Assembly: GCF_017052585.1 (NCBI RefSeq)
Contig: NZ_JAFFHZ010000001.1
Span: 1,426,001-1,490,000, forward strand
Direction of reading: 5' to 3'
DNA length: 64,000 nt
From: Paenibacillus apiarius
GTDB lineage: Bacteria > Bacillota > Bacilli > Paenibacillales > Paenibacillaceae
Below, piece by piece: positions 9,501-25,096 of this stretch; the stretch's first letter is position 1; each line of letters opens with the position of its first letter. The notes under the pieces were generated by a model. That model did not search any database, was not told the origin of the DNA, and saw only the letters and a list, made by a program, of their open reading frames with translations. Position numbers and translations under genes: made by a program.

Positions 9501-9516
9501 TGTGATGTATGTCACA
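9501..9516. promoter_or_regulatory. Perfect Fnr/Crp-type site TGTGATGTATGTCACA
   Basis: This is an exact TGTGA-N6-TCACA palindrome, the site known for Bacillus Fnr and for Crp. Its centre (9508.5) is about 41 nt upstream of a likely start after a TATTTTAAT -10 region near 9539-9547, a class II activator position. It precedes the small membrane protein at 9573. A second identical-consensus site lies at 22607-22622, and the window encodes one Crp/Fnr regulator. Confidence 0.75.
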
Positions 9517-16992: not shown

Positions 16993-17113
16993 ACAAATAT
17001 AGACCGGAATAATGAAGTCCTCCTTCTCTTCCGCTAACGGTGTCCTGTCTTCCTATGCTATGATTAGTCACGATGACGGGACATTCCTTGTTCCAAGGGA
17101 GGAGGTTTGCCTG

Positions 17114-17849
17114 CTTGCGTTTCAATGGTTATCAACTCAAGTTGTTCGCGATGGCGCTCATGCTGCTGGACCATGTCCATGCCTTCATTCCAGGAGCTCC
17201 CGATTGGTTCCATTGGCTTGGAAGAATCGCTGCGCCCATCTTTTTCTTCTTCCTCGTTGAAGGTTTCTGTTATACGGGCAGCCGGGAGAAGTATATGCTC
17301 CGCATGCTCGTCTTTACAATCATCATGGCCGCGGGAAGCGATGCGCTTGTCCTTCTGTTGCCGGGCGGCAGCATACCCAACAACATCTTTTTATCCATGC
17401 TTGCGGCGCTTATGCTTATGGCGACGCTCGACTGGATGCGCCAATCTCGCCAGTATGCAACAGGTCTCTCGTTAAGCGTCCTCCTTGGCTTGGTGATGGT
17501 GTTCTACGTTGAATTCAGCTGGCTTGCGGTATCGATGACGGTTATCTTTTATGTATTCCGCGGGCATAAAGCCGCGCTCGCAGCTGCTTATGTCGTCTCC
17601 TCTCTGCTGCTGACGTTGGGACCTTATGCGCTTATGCCGGATGCGGCAACCAAATGGACATACGACGAAATGTTCATTTTGCACCCGCAATGGATGATGA
17701 TTGCCGCGATTATTCCGATTCTGCTCTACAACGGATCCCGGGGAAGCAACTCGAAACGAACGAAATATTTATTTTACTTGTTTTATCCCTTACATATCTG
17801 GTTGTTATATACGGTCGGTTACACTGATTTAGACAGGGGGAACCTCTGA
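17114..17849 (+). CDS. TraX-family membrane protein (first tandem copy)
   Basis: The protein has about 244 residues and eight or so membrane helices. It begins FNGYQLKLFAMALMLLDHVH and ends YLFYLFYPLHIWLLY, both typical of the TraX family, named after the F-plasmid protein that N-acetylates pilin. Chromosomal copies in Firmicutes probably acylate unknown surface substrates. The TTG start is chosen by alignment with the next gene and by the GGAGGAGGT site about 9 nt upstream. The stop codon overlaps the next start (TGATG). Confidence 0.85.
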
Positions 17850-18568
17850 TGCGTTTGAACGGATTTCAATTGAAGCTTTTAGGTATGGCGCTGATGCTGC
17901 TTGATCATGTGAAGCAATTCATTCCCGGTATGCCGCTCTGGTTCGGATGGCTGGGAAGAATTGTCGCGCCTATCTTTTTCTATTTCATCGTGGAAGGCTT
18001 CTTCCACACGCGCGACCGTAAAAAATACATGCTGCGTCTGGCGATAGGGGCAGTCATCACCAAGGCAGGCAGCACGCTGCTGCAATTCGCTCTTCCAGAC
18101 AGCTCGCCGATTATGAACAACATCTTCCTGTCGCTTCTCATGGCGCTCCTGCTGCTGACGGCGATTGAATGGACGAAGACAACGGGCCGCATAGCGCTAG
18201 GCACGCTGTATATCGTGCTGGCCATCATCGGCGGAACCTTTACCGAAGCTAGCATTCTCGGCGTCATGATGACATTCGTCTTCTATTTCTGCCGCGGGAA
18301 TAAAGGCAACATGGCCCTTGCTTACGTCCTGTCCATGCTGTTCATTACGCTTGGTTTGGAGTTCAGCAGCCCGAATCCCATGTTCACATATGAGAATTTG
18401 TTCCTGATCAACTACCAATGGATGATGATTTTCGCGATTATCCCGATATTGCTGTACGACGGAACCCGCGGCTATCACGCCCCATGGTCCAAGTACATGT
18501 TCTACGTATTCTATCCCGTTCACATTTGGCTGTTGTACACGTTCGGTTACCTAATTGCTAATCCATAA
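17849..18568 (+). CDS. TraX-family membrane protein (second tandem copy)
   Basis: This 239-residue paralogue is clearly homologous to its neighbour over its whole length (LNGFQLKLLGMALMLLDHVK, WLGRIVAPIFFYFIVEGF, NNIFLSLLMALLL, YMFYVFYPVHIWLLY). The 1-nt TGATG overlap implies coupled translation and a likely heteromeric or paired function. It arose by tandem duplication; the middle loops have diverged most. Confidence 0.87.
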   Translation: MRLNGFQLKLLGMALMLLDHVKQFIPGMPLWFGWLGRIVAPIFFYFIVEGFFHTRDRKKYMLRLAIGAVITKAGSTLLQFALPDSSPIMNNIFLSLLMALLLLTAIEWTKTTGRIALGTLYIVLAIIGGTFTEASILGVMMTFVFYFCRGNKGNMALAYVLSMLFITLGLEFSSPNPMFTYENLFLINYQWMMIFAIIPILLYDGTRGYHAPWSKYMFYVFYPVHIWLLYTFGYLIANP

Positions 18569-18896: not shown

Positions 18897-18924
18897 AAAA
18901 AAAGCCGCAGACGCGCGGCTTTTT
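18897..18924. terminator. Bidirectional terminator
   Basis: AAAAAGCCGC and GCGGCTTTTT pair around a short loop, with A/T tracts on both sides. It separates the traX pair from the Crp/Fnr operon. Confidence 0.85.
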
Positions 18925-18960: not shown

Positions 18961-19677
18961 TTAATCAATATATTCGTTTAGCTTTTGCATATTTCGTATC
19001 GTAATTTCCCGGGTGCCTTTGATTTCAATAATACCCAGCCGTTCAAACTTGCTGAATTTGCGGCTGATGGTTTCCCGCGTAACTCCCACATAGTTGGCCA
19101 TTTCTTCGCGTGAAAGAGGGAGTTCAACCTTTATCCTTCCCTGCGCTCCCTGCGCCGGTTTGCCATATTTATTCCCGAGTTCCAAGATCATATAGGCAAT
19201 ACGTATTTCAGGGTCCTTTGTAGCCAAACTTTGGGCCAGGTTTTCCGTGTGCGCCAATCTTTTCGTAACCGTTTTGAGCAGCTTCAACGAAATATCCGGG
19301 TTGCTTCGGACAAGATGCTCCATATCATCTTTGGTAAACATGCAAATGTCGGTCTTTTTCAGCGCATATGCGCTAAAATTACTCAATTCATCACTGTTGA
19401 AGATATTCAACTCGCCAAAAAAATCTCCATTGGACAGGATATGCAAGATTTGCTCTTTTCCTTGAGGCGTCATTTTCAGCAGTTTGACATGGCCTTGCTT
19501 AATTATGAATAAGGTATCCGAAGGTTGTTCCTCCAGAATCAGCGCTTCGCCTTTCTCATACTTTCTGTGTCTAATCATCGCGCTGACTTTAGCCAAATCC
19601 TCATCAGAAAGAGAAGCGAAAATGGGTACTTTGCGGGTGCATGGCTCCTCGGCGTATTGGCAGGAATTTTCTGTCAT
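18961..19677 (-). CDS. Crp/Fnr-family transcriptional regulator
   Basis: The protein has about 238 residues. A cyclic-nucleotide-type beta barrel (near residues 15-130, with GDFFGELNIF) and a long dimer helix are followed by a C-terminal winged helix. The recognition helix reads TRETISRKFSKF; Arg-Glu and the later Arg match the residues by which Crp reads TGTGA half-sites. Only two N-terminal Cys are present (SCQYAEEPC), so a classical 4Fe-4S ligand set is not complete there. It is the last gene of the flavodiiron operon. ATG 19677 has GGAGTGG upstream. Confidence 0.9.
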   Translation of the reverse strand: MTENSCQYAEEPCTRKVPIFASLSDEDLAKVSAMIRHRKYEKGEALILEEQPSDTLFIIKQGHVKLLKMTPQGKEQILHILSNGDFFGELNIFNSDELSNFSAYALKKTDICMFTKDDMEHLVRSNPDISLKLLKTVTKRLAHTENLAQSLATKDPEIRIAYMILELGNKYGKPAQGAQGRIKVELPLSREEMANYVGVTRETISRKFSKFERLGIIEIKGTREITIRNMQKLNEYID

Positions 19678-19749
19678 CGTATCCACTCCATTCACTCTAT
19701 CTGCTCCATGTACAGTCTGAACGCATGACCGCACAACGTTTCAGTGCCG

Positions 19750-19914
19750 TTAGCCTTCAATAGGCGCAAATTGGGTCTTGTCTTCACCGCACACCGGACA
19801 AACCCAATCCTCGGGAAGATCCTCAAAGGCTGTGCCGGGTAAAATATCTTCATCAGGATCGCCGATGCTCGGATCGTAAATATACCCGCAAGGCTGACAT
19901 ATATATTTTTTCAT
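19750..19914 (-). CDS. Rubredoxin
   Basis: This 54-residue protein has the complete Fe(Cys)4 site: C6-x2-C9-GY and C39-PVC42-G, with the rubredoxin core [14 protein letters not shown] and LPEDWVCP. It is a small one-electron carrier. Its place between an FAD reductase and a flavodiiron protein points to an NAD(P)H-reductase, rubredoxin, flavodiiron electron chain that reduces NO or O2. Start ATG 19914 has GGAGA upstream. Confidence 0.95.
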
Positions 19915-19985
19915 AGTATTCTCTCCTTGTCATTAACTTATAGTGCGTATTCAAAAAGGCCGGCTTTCAGCACCTATGGTTGGGA

Positions 19986-21206
19986 TTATTGCAATCTTCT
20001 TGTGACTTCGTTCATGACTTCCTCTATGCCGCAGATTGCAAAGTCTAATCCATCAAGATTAAGGCTTTGTTCAATAGCGGCTTTATACGGTAAGGAAGCG
20101 GCAACGTTCTCGAATACAATAGCTCCGCACAGGGAGTTGTCTTTCATAAAAATCCGTTTATAACGCTCTTGTGCCGAGTCGGTTATGCTATTGTCGCATT
20201 GCTGTTCTTCCACCAGGCCGATGGAGAATAAGGGGGTGTCAAAGGTGTTGGACAAGGTCATTGGAACCGGCCGTTGGTAAATCGCTTTGTGGTTGGCCAT
20301 ATTGGCCCCGGCCACTTTCCCCTGCTCGATGGCACATCCCCACAGGCCGTCCACCTTGCCTTGGAATTCGGCGCAGTCCCCCGCGGCATAAATATCAATG
20401 TTGTTTGTTTGCATTTGCTCGTTGACGATAATGCCCGTCCCGGCTTCCAGGCCTGCCTCGCGGGCAAGCGCAATGTTCGGAATCACTCCGATTGAATAGA
20501 CGACATGCTCACAGGCAAGAGTCGAGCCGTCTTCAAGCTCTATACCTTCTGCGCGGCTTGTGCCAATAATGCTTTTGACACCTTGCCCAAGTCTCACCTC
20601 TGCTCCGAATTCAACAGCTTTGTTCATCAACATTGCCGAGGATTGGGCATCCAACTGCCGGGGCATAAGCCGTGATCCGGCCTCAATAATAGTGACAGGA
20701 TATCCGGTCTGAATAAGCGACCAGGCGGTTTCCAATCCCTGAATGCCGCCCCCGATGACACAGATCCGATCCCCCATCCGCAAAGCGGCCTTGAACTTGT
20801 CCGCATCATCCCTGTCCCGAATGTTATGCACGTTTGATAAAGAAGCGCCTTGGAGACTCAGCTTGCGATTTGTGGCTCCTGTACACAGCAGAAGCTTATG
20901 ATACGCAATCGTCTGGCCGTCAGCGGTCATAACTGATTTTTTTCCCGTATCAATGGAAGCGATTCGGGTACTGTCATGTACGGCAATTCCGTTATCGCGG
21001 AACCATTTTTCTTTCTTGATCAATACTTTTTCACTGTGCAAGTCTGTAAACAAGCCTTTGGAAAGCTTCACCCTGTTGTACGGAAGGGCCGGCTCCTCCC
21101 CAAAAATGGATATTTGCGTTTCGTCATCATGATCTCTGATTGCTTTGGCTGCATGTACGGAGGCAACTCCGCTGCCAACAATAACATAATGGTTGTTCTC
21201 GGCCAT
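19986..21206 (-). CDS. FAD-dependent NAD(P)H:rubredoxin-type oxidoreductase
   Basis: The 406-residue protein has two dinucleotide folds: the N-terminal FAD motif YVIVGSGVASVHAA and the central NAD(P) motif ICVIGGGIQGLETAW. The second FAD motif, IDIYAAGDCAEF, is also present. It belongs to the rubredoxin reductase/NirB-like flavoprotein group. The stop is about 70 nt before rubredoxin and the start about 30 nt after the flavodiiron gene, so the three form a plausible redox chain. A free-standing nitrite-reductase role is unlikely, since no sirohaem domain is present. Confidence 0.9.
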   Translation of the reverse strand: MAENNHYVIVGSGVASVHAAKAIRDHDDETQISIFGEEPALPYNRVKLSKGLFTDLHSEKVLIKKEKWFRDNGIAVHDSTRIASIDTGKKSVMTADGQTIAYHKLLLCTGATNRKLSLQGASLSNVHNIRDRDDADKFKAALRMGDRICVIGGGIQGLETAWSLIQTGYPVTIIEAGSRLMPRQLDAQSSAMLMNKAVEFGAEVRLGQGVKSIIGTSRAEGIELEDGSTLACEHVVYSIGVIPNIALAREAGLEAGTGIIVNEQMQTNNIDIYAAGDCAEFQGKVDGLWGCAIEQGKVAGANMANHKAIYQRPVPMTLSNTFDTPLFSIGLVEEQQCDNSITDSAQERYKRIFMKDNSLCGAIVFENVAASLPYKAAIEQSLNLDGLDFAICGIEEVMNEVTRRLQ

Positions 21207-21236
21207 ACTTATCTTCCTTTCTATAGTCTGATCTCG

Positions 21237-22472
21237 TTAAACCGCGCTAAGCAGCAGGTCTGTGATGAATTCGGCAGCATTTCTGATTTTTTTGATTTTT
21301 TCTTCTTCTTTTGGCGAGAAGCGCACACGTACAGGGAATTCCACATGCGTCATTCCGGTTGTCTTGATTACGTGCGAGGTGCTTAGCACGGTCATATTCG
21401 TCTGATTCAAATAATCCTGAACGACTTCAATGGCTTCGCCGCTCCAACCGTAAGAGCCGAAGGCTGCTGCAAGCTTCCCTTCCAGGTTCATCTCTTGCAG
21501 CTTCTGCAAAAGGGTCTCCAATGTACCGGTCATGTCCGCATATTTCGTCGAGCTGCCGATCAAGACGGCGTCTGCAGCCCCGATGCTGCTTAATATTTCA
21601 GTCTCGTCAGCCTTGTCCACGTCCCACAGATCCACGCTGATATTGTTTTCAAGAAAACATTCTCTCAGGATATTGGCCATTTTTTTGGTGTTATTTTTAA
21701 GCGTTGCATATACAATCGTTACTTTCTTGTTGTCCTTTGTTTCGGTGCTGAACTCATCATACAAGCTGATGTACTTGGCAATGTCACGCCGAAGTATATA
21801 GCCATGGGAAGGGGCAATGATTTCGATCTCCAAATCCCGGATGGCTTCCATCAGTGTCCGGACATATCTTCTGTGCGGATGGATAATTGCCTGGTAATAT
21901 CCGATGAAATCGGCGGTGATATCATATCCCGCTTCATCCGCAAAGGGATGCTCCACGGCTACATGAGTGCTGAAAATATCGCATGGGAACAATATTTTAT
22001 CCTCGATACAGTAAGTAATCATTGTTTCTTCCGTATGCAGATATGGAGTTTCTTTGAAGAGAAGCGTCTTGCCTCCAATATCAAGCTGGTCGCCATCTTT
22101 GACCACAAGATAATTGCGGTGCTGAAGCTTGTACATTTGTTGAATTTCCGGCACAGCGATTTCCGTGCAGACAATCGTGGCATTGGTTGCCTTGGAAGCC
22201 AGCGCCGCCAGACCGCCTGAGTGATCGGGTTCGGTATGGTTAATAACAATATATTGGATATCCAGCGGATCTATCATTTCGGCTATTTTTTCGGCGTACT
22301 CTCTTCCGAACTCCATATCTACCGTATCAATCACGGTTGGTTTGCCGGTTTTGAGCAAATATGAATTATAGGTCGTACCTTTTGTTAACGTAAGACGATG
22401 AAAGGGAACCTCGCGACTATCAATCTTTCCCACCCAGTAAATATCTTTGGACAGCTTACATTCCGTTAGCAT
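21237..22472 (-). CDS. Flavodiiron protein (A-type flavoprotein; NO/O2 reductase)
   Basis: The product has 411 residues. The N-terminal metallo-beta-lactamase-like domain holds the diiron ligands in NHTEPDHSGG (H-x-E-x-D-H), LHTEE, FPCDIFSTHV and APSHGYI. The C-terminal flavodoxin domain (about 255-400) includes VTIVYATLKNNTKKMA and AAAFGSYGWSGEA. Such proteins reduce NO to N2O or O2 to water with electrons from rubredoxin, encoded two genes downstream. ATG 22472 has AGGAGGT upstream. It is transcribed divergently from the V4R gene. Confidence 0.95.
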   Translation of the reverse strand: MLTECKLSKDIYWVGKIDSREVPFHRLTLTKGTTYNSYLLKTGKPTVIDTVDMEFGREYAEKIAEMIDPLDIQYIVINHTEPDHSGGLAALASKATNATIVCTEIAVPEIQQMYKLQHRNYLVVKDGDQLDIGGKTLLFKETPYLHTEETMITYCIEDKILFPCDIFSTHVAVEHPFADEAGYDITADFIGYYQAIIHPHRRYVRTLMEAIRDLEIEIIAPSHGYILRRDIAKYISLYDEFSTETKDNKKVTIVYATLKNNTKKMANILRECFLENNISVDLWDVDKADETEILSSIGAADAVLIGSSTKYADMTGTLETLLQKLQEMNLEGKLAAAFGSYGWSGEAIEVVQDYLNQTNMTVLSTSHVIKTTGMTHVEFPVRVRFSPKEEEKIKKIRNAAEFITDLLLSAV

Positions 22473-22606
22473 TAGAATAACCTCCTGCGGATCATTTGTT
22501 CATTTGTAACGACACCCTGATTTTATGCCTATTTGCAGGGGAAAAAGAGGATTGAAATCAAATTTTCGAAAATAAAAAAATGGTTCCGAAGCCGGATTGC
22601 GATTTA

Positions 22607-22622
22607 TGTGACTGGAATCACA
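22607..22622. promoter_or_regulatory. Fnr/Crp-type site TGTGACTGGAATCACA
   Basis: An exact TGTGA-N6-TCACA site is centred at 22614.5. The TATAAT at 22643-22648 would start transcription near 22655, placing the site at about -41, the classic activator position for the V4R gene. On the other side it is about 140 nt from the flavodiiron start and may serve both directions. Confidence 0.8.
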
Positions 22623-22642
22623 AATTGTAAGGAGCAGTCCAA

Positions 22643-22648
22643 TATAAT
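22643..22648 (+). promoter_or_regulatory. -10 element of the V4R-cupin promoter
   Basis: TATAAT lies 20 nt after the Fnr-type palindrome; no good -35 is present, as expected for an activator-dependent promoter. Confidence 0.6.
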
Positions 22649-22694
22649 AGAAGTAAATTCAATCATTCAGCAGAGAAGAACAGGCGGTGTACAT

Positions 22695-23159
22695 ATGAAT
22701 CAAGCAACTGTTGCACAAGAGTTTACGTTTGACGATATGAAAAAAATTTCAAGAACAAAATTGGGGCACACTGTTCCGATGGAGCTGTACAGAGCAGTTC
22801 GTTTAATTGGAATGTATCAAGGGCTTCCCATGAAAGGGAAGGGAACTACAGTTACGATTGGCAGAAAAATCGGCGAAAGCTTACCCGTTCATTCGTTAGA
22901 GGAGTTGCTGGATGTATTCCGTGAATTAAAAATAGGAGATCCTCAAATTGTTCATGAGGAAGAGCACAAAATTCATGTTGCTGTGAAAGACTGTTTTTGT
23001 GAAGGGTTACCTGAAATGGAGGGCAATATGGTGTGTGATCTGGAAGGAGCGATCATGGAGGGGGCGATGAACAAAATTAAAAATAAGAGGGTTTTTGTCA
23101 AGGAAATAAAATGCAATGTTAACGGAGACGACTGCTGCGAATATGAAATTCGTTTTTAA
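22695..23159 (+). CDS. V4R-domain protein with a cysteine cluster
   Basis: The product has 154 residues. The C-terminal half resembles the V4R (4-vinyl reductase) small-molecule/metal-binding fold, with six cysteines: KDCFCEG, NMVCDLEGA, EIKCNVNG and DDCCEY. This spacing suggests metal or Fe-S binding. The N-terminal half (VPMELYRAVRLIGMYQGLP) resembles the alpha/beta part of V4R and haem-NO-binding folds. ATG 22695 follows AGGCGGTG and lies about 40 nt after the predicted transcript start. Its divergence from the flavodiiron operon suggests an NO or redox sensor or carrier; this is inference. Confidence 0.7.
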   Translation: MNQATVAQEFTFDDMKKISRTKLGHTVPMELYRAVRLIGMYQGLPMKGKGTTVTIGRKIGESLPVHSLEELLDVFRELKIGDPQIVHEEEHKIHVAVKDCFCEGLPEMEGNMVCDLEGAIMEGAMNKIKNKRVFVKEIKCNVNGDDCCEYEIRF

Positions 23160-23228
23160 GTGAAAAGCGGCCTTTTTGAACATGGACTTTAAGTGAACAT
23201 TAATTACCTAACAGGAGAGTGATATCTA

Positions 23229-23570
23229 ATGCAAAAGAATAACCTTGCCCAGTTTCAAGAATATCAGGAGAACAAATTTACGAAACGCATTATTCACAAG
23301 GAAGCGGAAAATGTAATTTTCATTTTGAATTTTAGTCCGGGAGCCGAGCTGCCGACACATAATCATCCGGGCGCCAACGTGTATATTCTGGTGCTTGACG
23401 GAAAGGGGACCGTAACCAGCAATGGGGCGGAAACAGCAGTAGTAGAAGGGGATATCATTCATATCACTGGAGACGAGAGTTTCTCTTATCGCAACGGTGC
23501 AGACACCGTTTCCAGCCTTTATGTGGTATTAACGAAAACGCCCAACGAGCGTTACGCCCAAAATATCTGA
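23229..23570 (+). CDS. Cupin-domain protein
   Basis: This single-domain cupin has 113 residues with metal-ligand motif 1 in LPTHNHPGANVYILVLDGKG and motif 2 in VEGDIIHITGDESFSY. The second motif lacks the usual His, so metal binding may be incomplete. It follows the V4R gene by 69 nt with its own AGGAGAG site and is probably co-transcribed. Small cupins of this type are found beside anaerobic or nitrosative-stress genes; the ligand is unknown. Confidence 0.8.
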   Translation: MQKNNLAQFQEYQENKFTKRIIHKEAENVIFILNFSPGAELPTHNHPGANVYILVLDGKGTVTSNGAETAVVEGDIIHITGDESFSYRNGADTVSSLYVVLTKTPNERYAQNI

Positions 23571-23686: not shown

Positions 23687-23890
23687 TTAAATGAGCTTTT
23701 TCAGATCTTCGATGTTATCTTTCTCCGCCTCATCCTTCACGTCATCCACGATACCTCTTGTCGAGTTGCGGAATTCACGCAGGGTATCCCCGAAGGCGCG
23801 GCCAAGCTGGGGCAGCTTCGCCGGCCCAAATATGACAAGGGCGATGAGCAGGATAATAATCAAACCCGATACGCCAATATTGTTCAACAT
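23687..23890 (-). CDS. tatA: Sec-independent translocase protein TatA
   Basis: The protein has 67 residues: an N-terminal membrane helix (GVSGLIIILLIALVIFGPAKLPQLGRAFG with the FGP hinge), an amphipathic helix, and an acidic tail. TatA forms the pore for folded Tat substrates. ATG 23890 has GGAGG upstream. The gene is intact although the tatC beside it is not, so it must work with a TatC encoded elsewhere or be redundant. Confidence 0.93.
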   Translation of the reverse strand: MLNNIGVSGLIIILLIALVIFGPAKLPQLGRAFGDTLREFRNSTRGIVDDVKDEAEKDNIEDLKKLI

Positions 23891-23908
23891 ATGAGCTTCC
23901 TCCATTCG

Positions 23909-24140
23909 TTAACTGTTGGTAGGCAAGGCCGTCAGCCTGCGATAGTACAAGCTCGATATGACGGCACTGCATTCAAACAAGATGATTAACGGCATCTCGA
24001 ACGCGACGCCAAGCGAAAATACGACGTTGAACATGAACGTTAAGCACCGGTCGATCCCATACGTCTCCATTGCGCCGATGCTCTGGTTCATTTTCATCAA
24101 AAAGTGGATCATCATCAGAAATACGACGAAATAGCTGAAT
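23909..24140 (-). pseudogene. tatC remnant with 5' and internal deletions
   Basis: The frame reads FSYFVVFLMMIHFLMKMNQS, then ETYGIDRCLTFMFNVVFSLGV and FEMPLIILFE, all central TatC sequence. It then jumps to CSAVISSLYYRRL, which matches the C-terminal end of TatC. The N-terminal half and the helices between the two PLI(I/M)L(F/Y)E-like segments are missing. No start codon belongs to it; it is joined in another frame to the preceding gene fragment. Confidence 0.8.
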
Positions 24141-24359
24141 GAAATACATGAGCACCTGATTGAAATCGGCTAGTAACGGCTGCTCTTCCGGAGTAGCAGC
24201 ATCCGGCTGTTCCTCCGGTTTCGTCAGCGTATTATTAAGGATGTTGAGGACTGCTCCTATAATTCCGCCGCCGACGACTCCCCCGAGCGCCGCACCGGAC
24301 ACTTTCAAGAAATTGCGCCGGGAGCTGCTTCGAGGCTGGTTTTCTTTATATTCTGGCAC
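24141..24359 (-). pseudogene. 5' fragment of gluconate 2-dehydrogenase subunit 3 (Tat signal)
   Basis: The first 73 residues carry a twin-arginine signal (SSRRNFLKVSGAALGGVVGG) and end in ADFNQVLMYF. This matches the start of the gamma subunit of membrane-bound gluconate dehydrogenases of Paenibacillus-like bacteria. At about 24140 the sequence switches to tatC in another frame. The rest of this subunit and the large GMC flavoprotein subunit are absent. Confidence 0.7.
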
Positions 24360-24505: not shown

Positions 24506-24889
24506 TCACTTCTTCGCCGCCAGCCAATCGGTAAGCGACTTGATCTCATCTTCACTCAGTATGCCTTTGAATGCCGTCATCCCGTTGCCGCCGTTGTGGA
24601 TAATATTCGAAATTTCTTCCGGCGTCCTTTTTGCCCCTACCTTCTGCAAATTGGGTCCTGCCTGTCCGCTTAAATCGGCAGCATGACAAGCGAGGCAATT
24701 CTGCTTGTATACCGCTTCGGCATTTGCAGTAGTCGTGGCTTCTCCTTGCGTCTCTCCTTGCGTTGTTCCTGGCGTTTGACCTTGATTTTCTTTTTGTGCC
24801 TGTTCCTTATCCGTGTTGGTCTTTGATCCGCATGCGGTTAGTCCAAGGAGCAGAACGACTGCCAGCAGCATCATTGTAACTTTCTTCAT
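24506..24889 (-). CDS. Lipoprotein cytochrome c (c551 type)
   Basis: The protein has about 127 residues. A signal peptide ends in the lipobox LTAC, followed by a Gln/Thr-rich linker and a mono-haem domain with CLACH and the probable axial Met in NGMTAFKG. It is an electron carrier on the outer membrane face, similar to Bacillus CccB. Its position before the gluconate-dehydrogenase fragment suggests it once accepted electrons from that enzyme. ATG 24889 has AGAGGTG upstream. Confidence 0.92.
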   Translation of the reverse strand: MKKVTMMLLAVVLLLGLTACGSKTNTDKEQAQKENQGQTPGTTQGETQGEATTTANAEAVYKQNCLACHAADLSGQAGPNLQKVGAKRTPEEISNIIHNGGNGMTAFKGILSEDEIKSLTDWLAAKK

Positions 24890-25096
24890 TATTTGCACCT
24901 CTAATCATCCTAGGAATAGCGTTAGGTTATCCGAAAGAATTGCCGTTCATTCTTGATAAAGAAACAGAAACGCCATTTTAAATTGTGTGCAATTAAATTG
25001 ACCACAAGTAAATAGTGTGATATAAATGAAATAGAAATGAAATAGAAATGAACGACTCCAAAATACATGGAGCATGTGAATGCAAAGGAGAGAATA

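Follow-up and report, generated by a model that had tools for sequence, protein, structure and literature searches.

A V4R-cupin gene pair divergent from a flavodiiron operon in Paenibacillus apiarius, and a possible sensory role for its V4R protein

The Escherichia coli flavorubredoxin system NorVW has a dedicated sigma-54 regulator, NorR, and genes for H-NOX proteins are known to adjoin those of cyclic di-GMP (c-di-GMP) enzymes. Apart from Fnr, ResDE and NsrR, little is known of nitric oxide (NO) and redox control among Gram-positive bacteria that respire nitrate. In Methanothermobacter, the regulator MthMsvR, which joins a V4R domain to a helix-turn-helix (HTH), controls its own gene and the flavodiiron F420H2 oxidase gene fpaA from a divergent promoter region (excerpts of PMC3729527). 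MsvR has three conserved cysteines, C206, C232 and C240; C206A has a clear effect on how the protein binds DNA in response to redox state, and exchange of either other cysteine a less clear one (excerpts of PMC3729527). The zinc cysteines of DmpR are Cys151, Cys177 and Cys185, spaced 26/8, and its zinc glutamate is printed as Glu172 (excerpts of PMC7264223). The subject here is a locus in a 64,000-nucleotide stretch of Paenibacillus apiarius DNA (contig NZ_JAFFHZ010000001.1, positions 1,426,001 to 1,490,000), hereafter the window, which is part of a 6.58-Mb genome (G000). The minus strand carries genes for a flavodiiron protein (FDP), a reductase, a rubredoxin and a Crp/Fnr regulator; divergent from them, the plus strand carries genes for a V4R-domain protein and a cupin.

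The V4R protein is tentatively read as a one-domain, MsvR-like thiol or metal sensor in an Fnr-controlled unit for anaerobic growth and nitrate respiration beside the FDP operon, a reading held with somewhat less than even confidence. It is preferred because the best NCBIfam match is MsvR and a 26/8 cysteine spacing recurs in MsvR and DmpR, because Foldseek matches include MJ1460, PoxR/MopR and H-NOX, and because MthMsvR regulates a flavodiiron gene. It is further favored because the V4R gene co-occurs with FDP and narG, because homologous domains are joined to sigma-54 or SpoIIE-type domains and adjoin GGDEF, EAL and HD proteins, because an Fnr box lies at a conserved spacing upstream, and because one genome in which V4R is gone beside FDP (G014) keeps another V4R elsewhere.

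The V4R-cupin pair and its promoter

The divergent pair and its promoter elements are as follows.

22695-23159, plus strand: V4R-domain protein of 154 amino acids (Pfam V4R, 9.4e-8)
23229-23570, plus strand: small cupin of 113 amino acids (Cupin_2, 1.6e-11), with a conserved HxHP and a near-invariant E83
22607-22622, plus strand: Fnr box TGTGACTGGAATCACA upstream of V4R, an exact palindromic match
22643-22648, plus strand: TATAAT, the predicted -10 of the V4R-cupin transcript, starting 28 nucleotides past the Fnr-box centre

The protein scores 32.5 bits against V4R (PF02830), for which the Pfam gathering cut-off is 31. The MsvR profile (NF053755, cut-off 220 bits) matches it at 1.3e-11 with 44.7 bits, and only over positions 135-236, the C-terminal V4R region of MsvR. 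Neither Pfam nor NCBIfam gives an HTH or other DNA-binding match anywhere in the 154 residues, and because it lacks a DNA-binding domain the protein is not itself an MsvR. Its closest relatives in named genomes come from Paenibacillus. Residues C100, C102, C114, E137, C140 and C148 are common to 56 V4R homologues, an alignment that leaves out the window locus under its second name (L001) and the low-scoring or fragmentary V4R sequences under the score limit. Position 147 is a cysteine in just 10 of these 56, so that five cysteines are invariant, one fewer than the six counted in the first-pass annotation. When sequences closer than 97% are dropped (alignment A1, 48 sequences), 37 columns are invariant, with the five cysteines present in 48/48 and neither His nor Trp among the invariant columns; C102, C114 and C148 are also kept in at least 90% of a set of 28 aligned sequences. 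The spacing of C114, C140 and C148 is 26/8.

An AlphaFold2 model of the protein (mean pLDDT 82.7) matches MJ1460, TRAPP Bet3, PoxR/MopR, YslB and H-NOX in Foldseek, with E values of about 1e-6 to 1e-4. For the V4R/Bet3 fold, the matches are 2osd (8.6e-7) and 2oso (2.1e-6), with TM scores of 0.56-0.60 and root-mean-square deviations (rmsd) of 7.4-7.9. The H-NOX match is 2o09 (E 1.5e-4, TM 0.50, rmsd 5.5), in line with the earlier suggestion that V4R is structurally related to haem-NO-binding domains.

The Fnr box TGTGACTGGAATCACA is one of two exact matches to TGTGAN6TCACA in the 64 kb; the other, at 9501-9516, may mark a further Fnr target. Allowing up to two mismatches, the pattern shows no excess over the whole window (18 found, 21.4 expected). 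Among 56 V4R upstream regions, the box is exact in 12, has one mismatch in 11 and two in 15, and is absent from 18; in random 300-bp windows the corresponding frequencies are 0.7% (exact), 1.2% (one mismatch) and 8.6% (two). At no more than one mismatch it is found in 23/56 regions as against about 1.9% of random windows, a count that includes the window locus twice, one G014 locus that is surely repeated through the named collection and one G011 locus that probably is. In 18 of these 23 regions the best -10-like hexamer lies 28-29 nucleotides from the box centre. Its enrichment across the upstream regions of V4R homologues speaks against a chance match. The promoter is accordingly predicted to be of the Fnr-regulated type, with the box at class-II distance from the -10 and conserved in relatives, and the perfect Fnr-type promoter noted in the first-pass annotation is upheld.

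A metal-dependent cupin has two motifs that supply three histidines and one glutamate. In alignments, the window cupin keeps HxH, but the Glu of motif 1 is missing and no further His is invariant. With just these two histidines invariant, assignment as a classical metal cupin is not supported; one near-invariant Glu, E83, lies further along and could be a different ligand. Sequence searches of the PDB give remote cupin matches (best 1.4e-7). The cupin is a predicted co-expressed accessory.

The flavodiiron operon and its regulator

On the minus strand, the operon and its signals are arranged in the order of transcription as listed.

22547-22562, minus strand: conserved FDP-promoter motif TTTGATTTCAATCCTC, FNR-like TTGAT-N4-ATCCT, a candidate Crp/Fnr operator
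22520-22525, minus strand: TAAAAT, a candidate -10 for the FDP operon, 29 nucleotides from the motif centre
21237-22472, minus strand: FDP of 411 amino acids, two domains, no fused rubredoxin
19986-21206, minus strand: NADH:rubredoxin/flavorubredoxin reductase-like flavoprotein of 406 amino acids (Pfam: Pyr_redox_2 3.4e-58, Rubredoxin_C 5.7e-13)
19750-19914, minus strand: rubredoxin of 54 amino acids (PF00301 3.7e-23; NF045768 104.3 bits against a cut-off of 90)
18961-19677, minus strand: Crp/Fnr regulator of 238 amino acids, ATG at 19677 (PF00027, cNMP_binding; PF13545, HTH_Crp_2)
18903-18920, minus strand: likely operon terminator, AGCCGC...GCGGCT followed by a T run, found by eye and absent from the terminator scan output

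The FDP combines a beta-lactamase-like ODP domain with a flavodoxin domain, as flavodiiron membership demands (Pfam: ODP 2.6e-24, Flavodoxin_1 2.1e-9, Lactamase_B), and carries by eye the HxExDH ligand motif. It matches the NCBIfam flavorubredoxin PRK11921 at 2.4e-83, under the family cut-off, and is a predicted NO/O2 reductase. NorW is among the NCBIfam matches of the reductase, also under cut-off.

The surroundings of FDP were fetched for 20 genes in other Paenibacillaceae, a subset of the 36 FDP genomes described below. The order FDP-reductase-rubredoxin-Crp/Fnr is kept in 19 of these cassettes, the remaining one ending at a contig end after the reductase. With P. monticola (L045), which holds the same four genes, the order is kept in 20 of 21 other loci. 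The first-pass description of an electron chain for NO/O2 reduction encoded with its own Crp/Fnr regulator is supported. The Crp/Fnr gene lies on the opposite strand in 3 of the 19 ordered cassettes (L141-L143). The regulator itself has cysteines 6, 13 and 112 invariant in 21/21 sequences (its own and 20 FDP-linked relatives) and a recognition helix, VTRETISRKF, of the ETISR type. Such conserved cysteines could hold a cluster, as in an Fe-S Fnr.

The FDP promoter bears an operator-like motif of its own, distinct from the Fnr box on the V4R side. Exact copies of the core KTGATTNNAATCCT occur in 22 of 25 FDP upstream regions, whereas only 0.3% of random 260-bp windows from the fetched loci contain one, and a -10-like hexamer starts 29 nucleotides from the motif centre in 18 of the 25. 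The longer form TKTGATTNNAATCCTC has a single exact copy in the P. apiarius genome, at the FDP promoter, and 11 copies at up to one mismatch compared with 2 for a reversed control pattern. The motif reads as an FNR-type half site with a deviant second half, and this TTGAT-N4-ATCCT site in front of FDP is probably a target of the operon's Crp/Fnr.

Simple promoter and terminator scans of the window gave no excess over shuffled sequence (10 against 10.3 and 7 against 6.7, respectively). Several neighboring features were identified by eye. Near the V4R-FDP locus, 24506-24898 encodes a small cytochrome c that is a lipoprotein and has the haem motif CLACH. At 23687-24359, a tatA-like gene is followed by a tatC-like remnant that overlaps an open reading frame with a Tat-type signal, and the segment looks decayed. 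A tandem pair of paralogous TraX-like membrane proteins occupies 17073-18568.

Co-occurrence and genomic settings of the V4R domain

Across 245 genomes of the family, V4R is found in 71, FDP in 36, narG in 88 and the cupin in 90; the three family searches for V4R, FDP and narG are assumed to share the same genomes, since handles and counts agree. V4R is present in 31 of the 36 FDP genomes and in 40 of the 209 others (odds ratio 26, Fisher p 9e-15, the p-values given here ignoring shared ancestry), or in 29/36 and 33/209 if only full-length V4R is counted. It is likewise found in 57 of the 88 narG genomes and 14 of the 157 others (p 3e-20). Taken jointly, V4R occurs in 27/30 genomes with FDP and narG, 4/6 with FDP only, 30/58 with narG only and 10/151 with neither. 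Within the genus of the window, it is present in 6/7 FDP genomes and 0/12 others (p 2.6e-4), the full-length form alone in 4/7 (p 0.009). The V4R match is partial in nine of the 71 genomes (G008, G012, G266, G129, G150, G255, G257, G260, G106). By coordinates, at least 20 of the 90 cupin genomes have the cupin gene no more than about 5 kb from narG; about 14 of these narG-near cupins are a remote homologue of about 38-42% identity, which may be a paralogue. A scan of the order finds V4R in 59/256 genomes.

Neighbors were counted in 49 public V4R loci, within 2.5 kb (5.5 kb for cupin and FDP). A Crp/Fnr gene is present in 19, a PAS-GGDEF-EAL protein in 10 and a protoglobin chemotaxis sensor in 9. 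The ten PAS-GGDEF-EAL loci are nine Bacillaceae and one Ammoniphilus (L023, L024, L029, L031, L033, L036, L042, L051, L052, L059), one protein having been named by Pfam scan and the others by clustering. In several loci (L035, L038, L039, L041, L043, L044, L047, L048, L049, L053, L055, L057), a V4R-cupin-Fnr island, in some with the protoglobin sensor, sits inside the ribosomal protein/fusA/tuf cluster (genes identified by eye).

A phylum-wide scan finds the domain in 29/398 genomes, also as the N-terminal part of sigma-54 regulators. In more distant Firmicutes, the V4R neighbors are GGDEF-EAL, GGDEF and HD proteins in L226, L227 and L214, respectively, and V4R is fused to a SpoIIE-type phosphatase in L217. 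Nine of the 20 distant Firmicute loci fetched (L212-L231) are of the sigma-54 type. The carbon monoxide (CO) dehydrogenase CooS, with CooF and/or CooC-like genes, is encoded close to the V4R-sigma-54 regulator in eight of the nine (L218-L225, three families); the ninth, L229, stops at a contig end. The CooS of L223 matches TIGR01702 at 2.4e-222, the remaining ones were named by likeness to it (over 700 bits), and a 72-bit CooS-like match in L215 was left out of the count. A Pfam scan of two of the nine regulators gives V4R and sigma-54 domains in both and PAS in one; the other seven were typed by eye. With the window FDP as query (over 45 bits, greedily chosen open reading frames), FDP was not found in L212-L231. 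V4R in Clostridiales sigma-54 regulators has already been printed as an item in a domain list (excerpts of PMC6615313). A literature search for V4R with carbon monoxide dehydrogenase returned no paper on the link. The V4R-sigma-54 regulators near CooS may form an undescribed CO- or redox-responsive class.

Competing readings and comparison with known systems

Under the MsvR-like reading, the locus would be an Fnr-family-controlled unit for anaerobic or nitrate-respiring growth, in which the minus-strand operon would scavenge NO and O2 through the FDP, with its own electron donors and its own three-cysteine Crp/Fnr. The V4R protein would be a stand-alone MsvR-type sensory domain without the DNA-binding part and may act like the sensor half of MsvR. 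Zinc or another metal could occupy a site formed by C114, E137, C140 and C148, and the additional CxC pair, C100 and C102, might serve as a redox- or NO-sensitive thiol switch. Oxidised or nitrosated V4R would then change shape and signal in trans by contact with a partner protein, much as H-NOX does.

Apart from the shared ancestry that the p-values ignore, a number of points weigh against this reading. The best Foldseek matches have large rmsd values, of about 4-9, and the protein has no output domain. Glu172 of DmpR lies five residues before Cys177, while E137 of the window protein lies three before C140. The MsvR-flavodiiron link is not general among methanogens, because MaMsvR failed to bind the promoters of FpaA homologues (excerpts of PMC3729527). 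The 18 V4R upstream regions that have no Fnr box at up to two mismatches come from 11 loci of Bacillaceae, from Ammoniphilus L059 and from 6 loci of Paenibacillus, and include both a close relative (L013, V4R 84% identical) and the FDP-linked L045; the Fnr link is therefore a Paenibacillaceae feature and is not universal there. Five of the 36 FDP genomes have no V4R, and the association with FDP may follow from nitrate respiration, because that with narG has the smaller p-value. Physical linkage is rare: by coordinates, V4R lies within 10 kb of FDP in 5 of the 31 genomes with both (G000, G006, G008, G012, G207), a count from which draft contigs could hide more, and FDP is within reach in 1 of the 49 public V4R loci (P. 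monticola L045), some of these loci being short. In G008 and G012, the V4R gene next to intact FDP and cupin genes has internal deletions. In G014, V4R is gone from that place, the cupin comes directly after the Fnr promoter, and the genome keeps a second, distant V4R at another site. G222, which also has both FDP and cupin, gives no V4R match in the family search. V4R has thus been decayed or lost repeatedly in Paenibacillaceae, and since it is broken or absent beside intact FDP and cupin, it is accessory and dispensable for FDP itself. Of the two, the cupin accompanies FDP more faithfully in this group.

The same observations lend themselves to another explanation, in which V4R and cupin belong to a general Fnr and nitrate-respiration regulon and bind a small, perhaps hydrophobic, metabolite, with FDP adjacent only through a shared Fnr-controlled intergenic region. 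This is quite possible, if doubtful. The pair occurs mostly without FDP, the cupin being near V4R in 17 of the 49 loci, so that it is not specific to the flavodiiron system. V4R is lost beside FDP in several species, and 57 of the 71 V4R genomes have narG; in 8 of the 57, V4R and narG are by coordinates no more than about 3 kb apart. The V4R domains of DmpR and MopR bind phenols (excerpts of PMC7264223). However, V4R co-occurs with FDP even when unlinked, across the family and within the genus, and the His and Trp that hold the phenol hydroxyl in DmpR/MopR find no counterpart among the 37 invariant columns, which weakens phenol sensing. In the survey of V4R-flavodiiron neighborhoods called for at the outset, adjacency is rare, yet V4R and FDP co-occur across genomes.

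A direct sensor of NO or CO, holding an iron-sulphur cluster or iron-thiolate on the five invariant cysteines, is improbable. The full conservation of these residues in 48 sequences, that of C102, C114 and C148 in the set of 28, and the homologous domain beside CO dehydrogenase in eight of nine sigma-54-type loci would suit it, but the spacing of three of the cysteines matches a known zinc site. A role for V4R and cupin as a pair that carries metal to the diiron site of FDP or repairs it is decidedly improbable: the cupin keeps an HxH pair, co-occurrence with FDP is seen, and G008, G012, G014 and G222 have the cupin next to FDP with V4R broken or absent, but only 3 of the 20 fetched FDP cassettes include the cupin and 1 includes V4R within the stretch taken, and the cassette stays where V4R is lost. 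A haem-based, H-NOX-like NO sensor is hardly credible, because the shared superfamily fold and the ties of V4R to nitrate respiration, FDP and c-di-GMP enzymes are set against the lack of an invariant His in the 37 columns; of the NO or iron sensor first envisaged, the sensor role persists as the best reading and H-NOX-type haem sensing does not.

The locus is thus regarded as a real, conserved and partly explained arrangement for which the MsvR-like sensor has the best support, short of even confidence. A wider proposal is unlikely: the cysteine-rich, H-NOX-fold-related V4R domain would be a general gas and redox sensory module of Firmicutes, based on thiols or metal and not on haem. It would work in cis within sigma-54 regulators of CO dehydrogenase and within a phosphatase of SpoIIE type; Bacillaceae and other, more distant Firmicutes would use it in trans together with c-di-GMP enzymes, and nitrate-respiring Paenibacillus would have it under Fnr, alongside FDP. 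If V4R is a thiol- or metal-based gas sensor, it would connect the archaeal MsvR-FpaA system with FDP and nitrate respiration in bacteria, and would account for the V4R domains found next to CO dehydrogenase and to c-di-GMP enzymes. As a small soluble protein, it is amenable to direct tests of its responses to metal, NO, CO and redox state.

Literature searches found no paper on a V4R domain with flavodiiron proteins, and nothing to the point on flavodiiron proteins in Paenibacillus or on Paenibacillus Fnr, nitrate respiration or NO. The first-pass statement that no role had been described for a V4R-cupin pair with a flavodiiron system is half right, as it missed the MsvR precedent, in which MthMsvR regulates fpaA divergently (excerpts of PMC3729527).

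Among the systems compared, YslB/DUF2507 of Bacillus has the V4R-type fold (3njc, Foldseek), and its sequence match to the window protein is weak (0.0062, 17 bits against a cut-off of 35). Like NorVW-NorR, the window locus combines an FDP, an NADH:rubredoxin reductase and a rubredoxin with a dedicated regulator; unlike it, the rubredoxin is a separate protein and the regulator is a Crp/Fnr protein rather than a sigma-54 NorR. The window V4R shares with H-NOX (e.g., Nostoc 2o09) the superfamily fold, the form of a small stand-alone protein and relatives located beside c-di-GMP enzymes, but is cysteine-based and has no invariant His for haem. With DmpR, MopR and PoxR, it has in common the V4R fold (E about 1e-5 in Foldseek), and three of its cysteines are spaced 26/8 like those that bind zinc in DmpR; in contrast to them, it lacks invariant His/Trp phenol anchors and an AAA+ or DNA-binding domain. 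In comparison with MsvR, the window protein is bacterial, has no HTH and carries an extra invariant CxC; its gene is preceded by an Fnr box, while that of MsvR is under the control of MsvR itself. The two nevertheless share the 26/8 spacing of three cysteines (by residue numbers) and a divergent tie to a flavodiiron gene.

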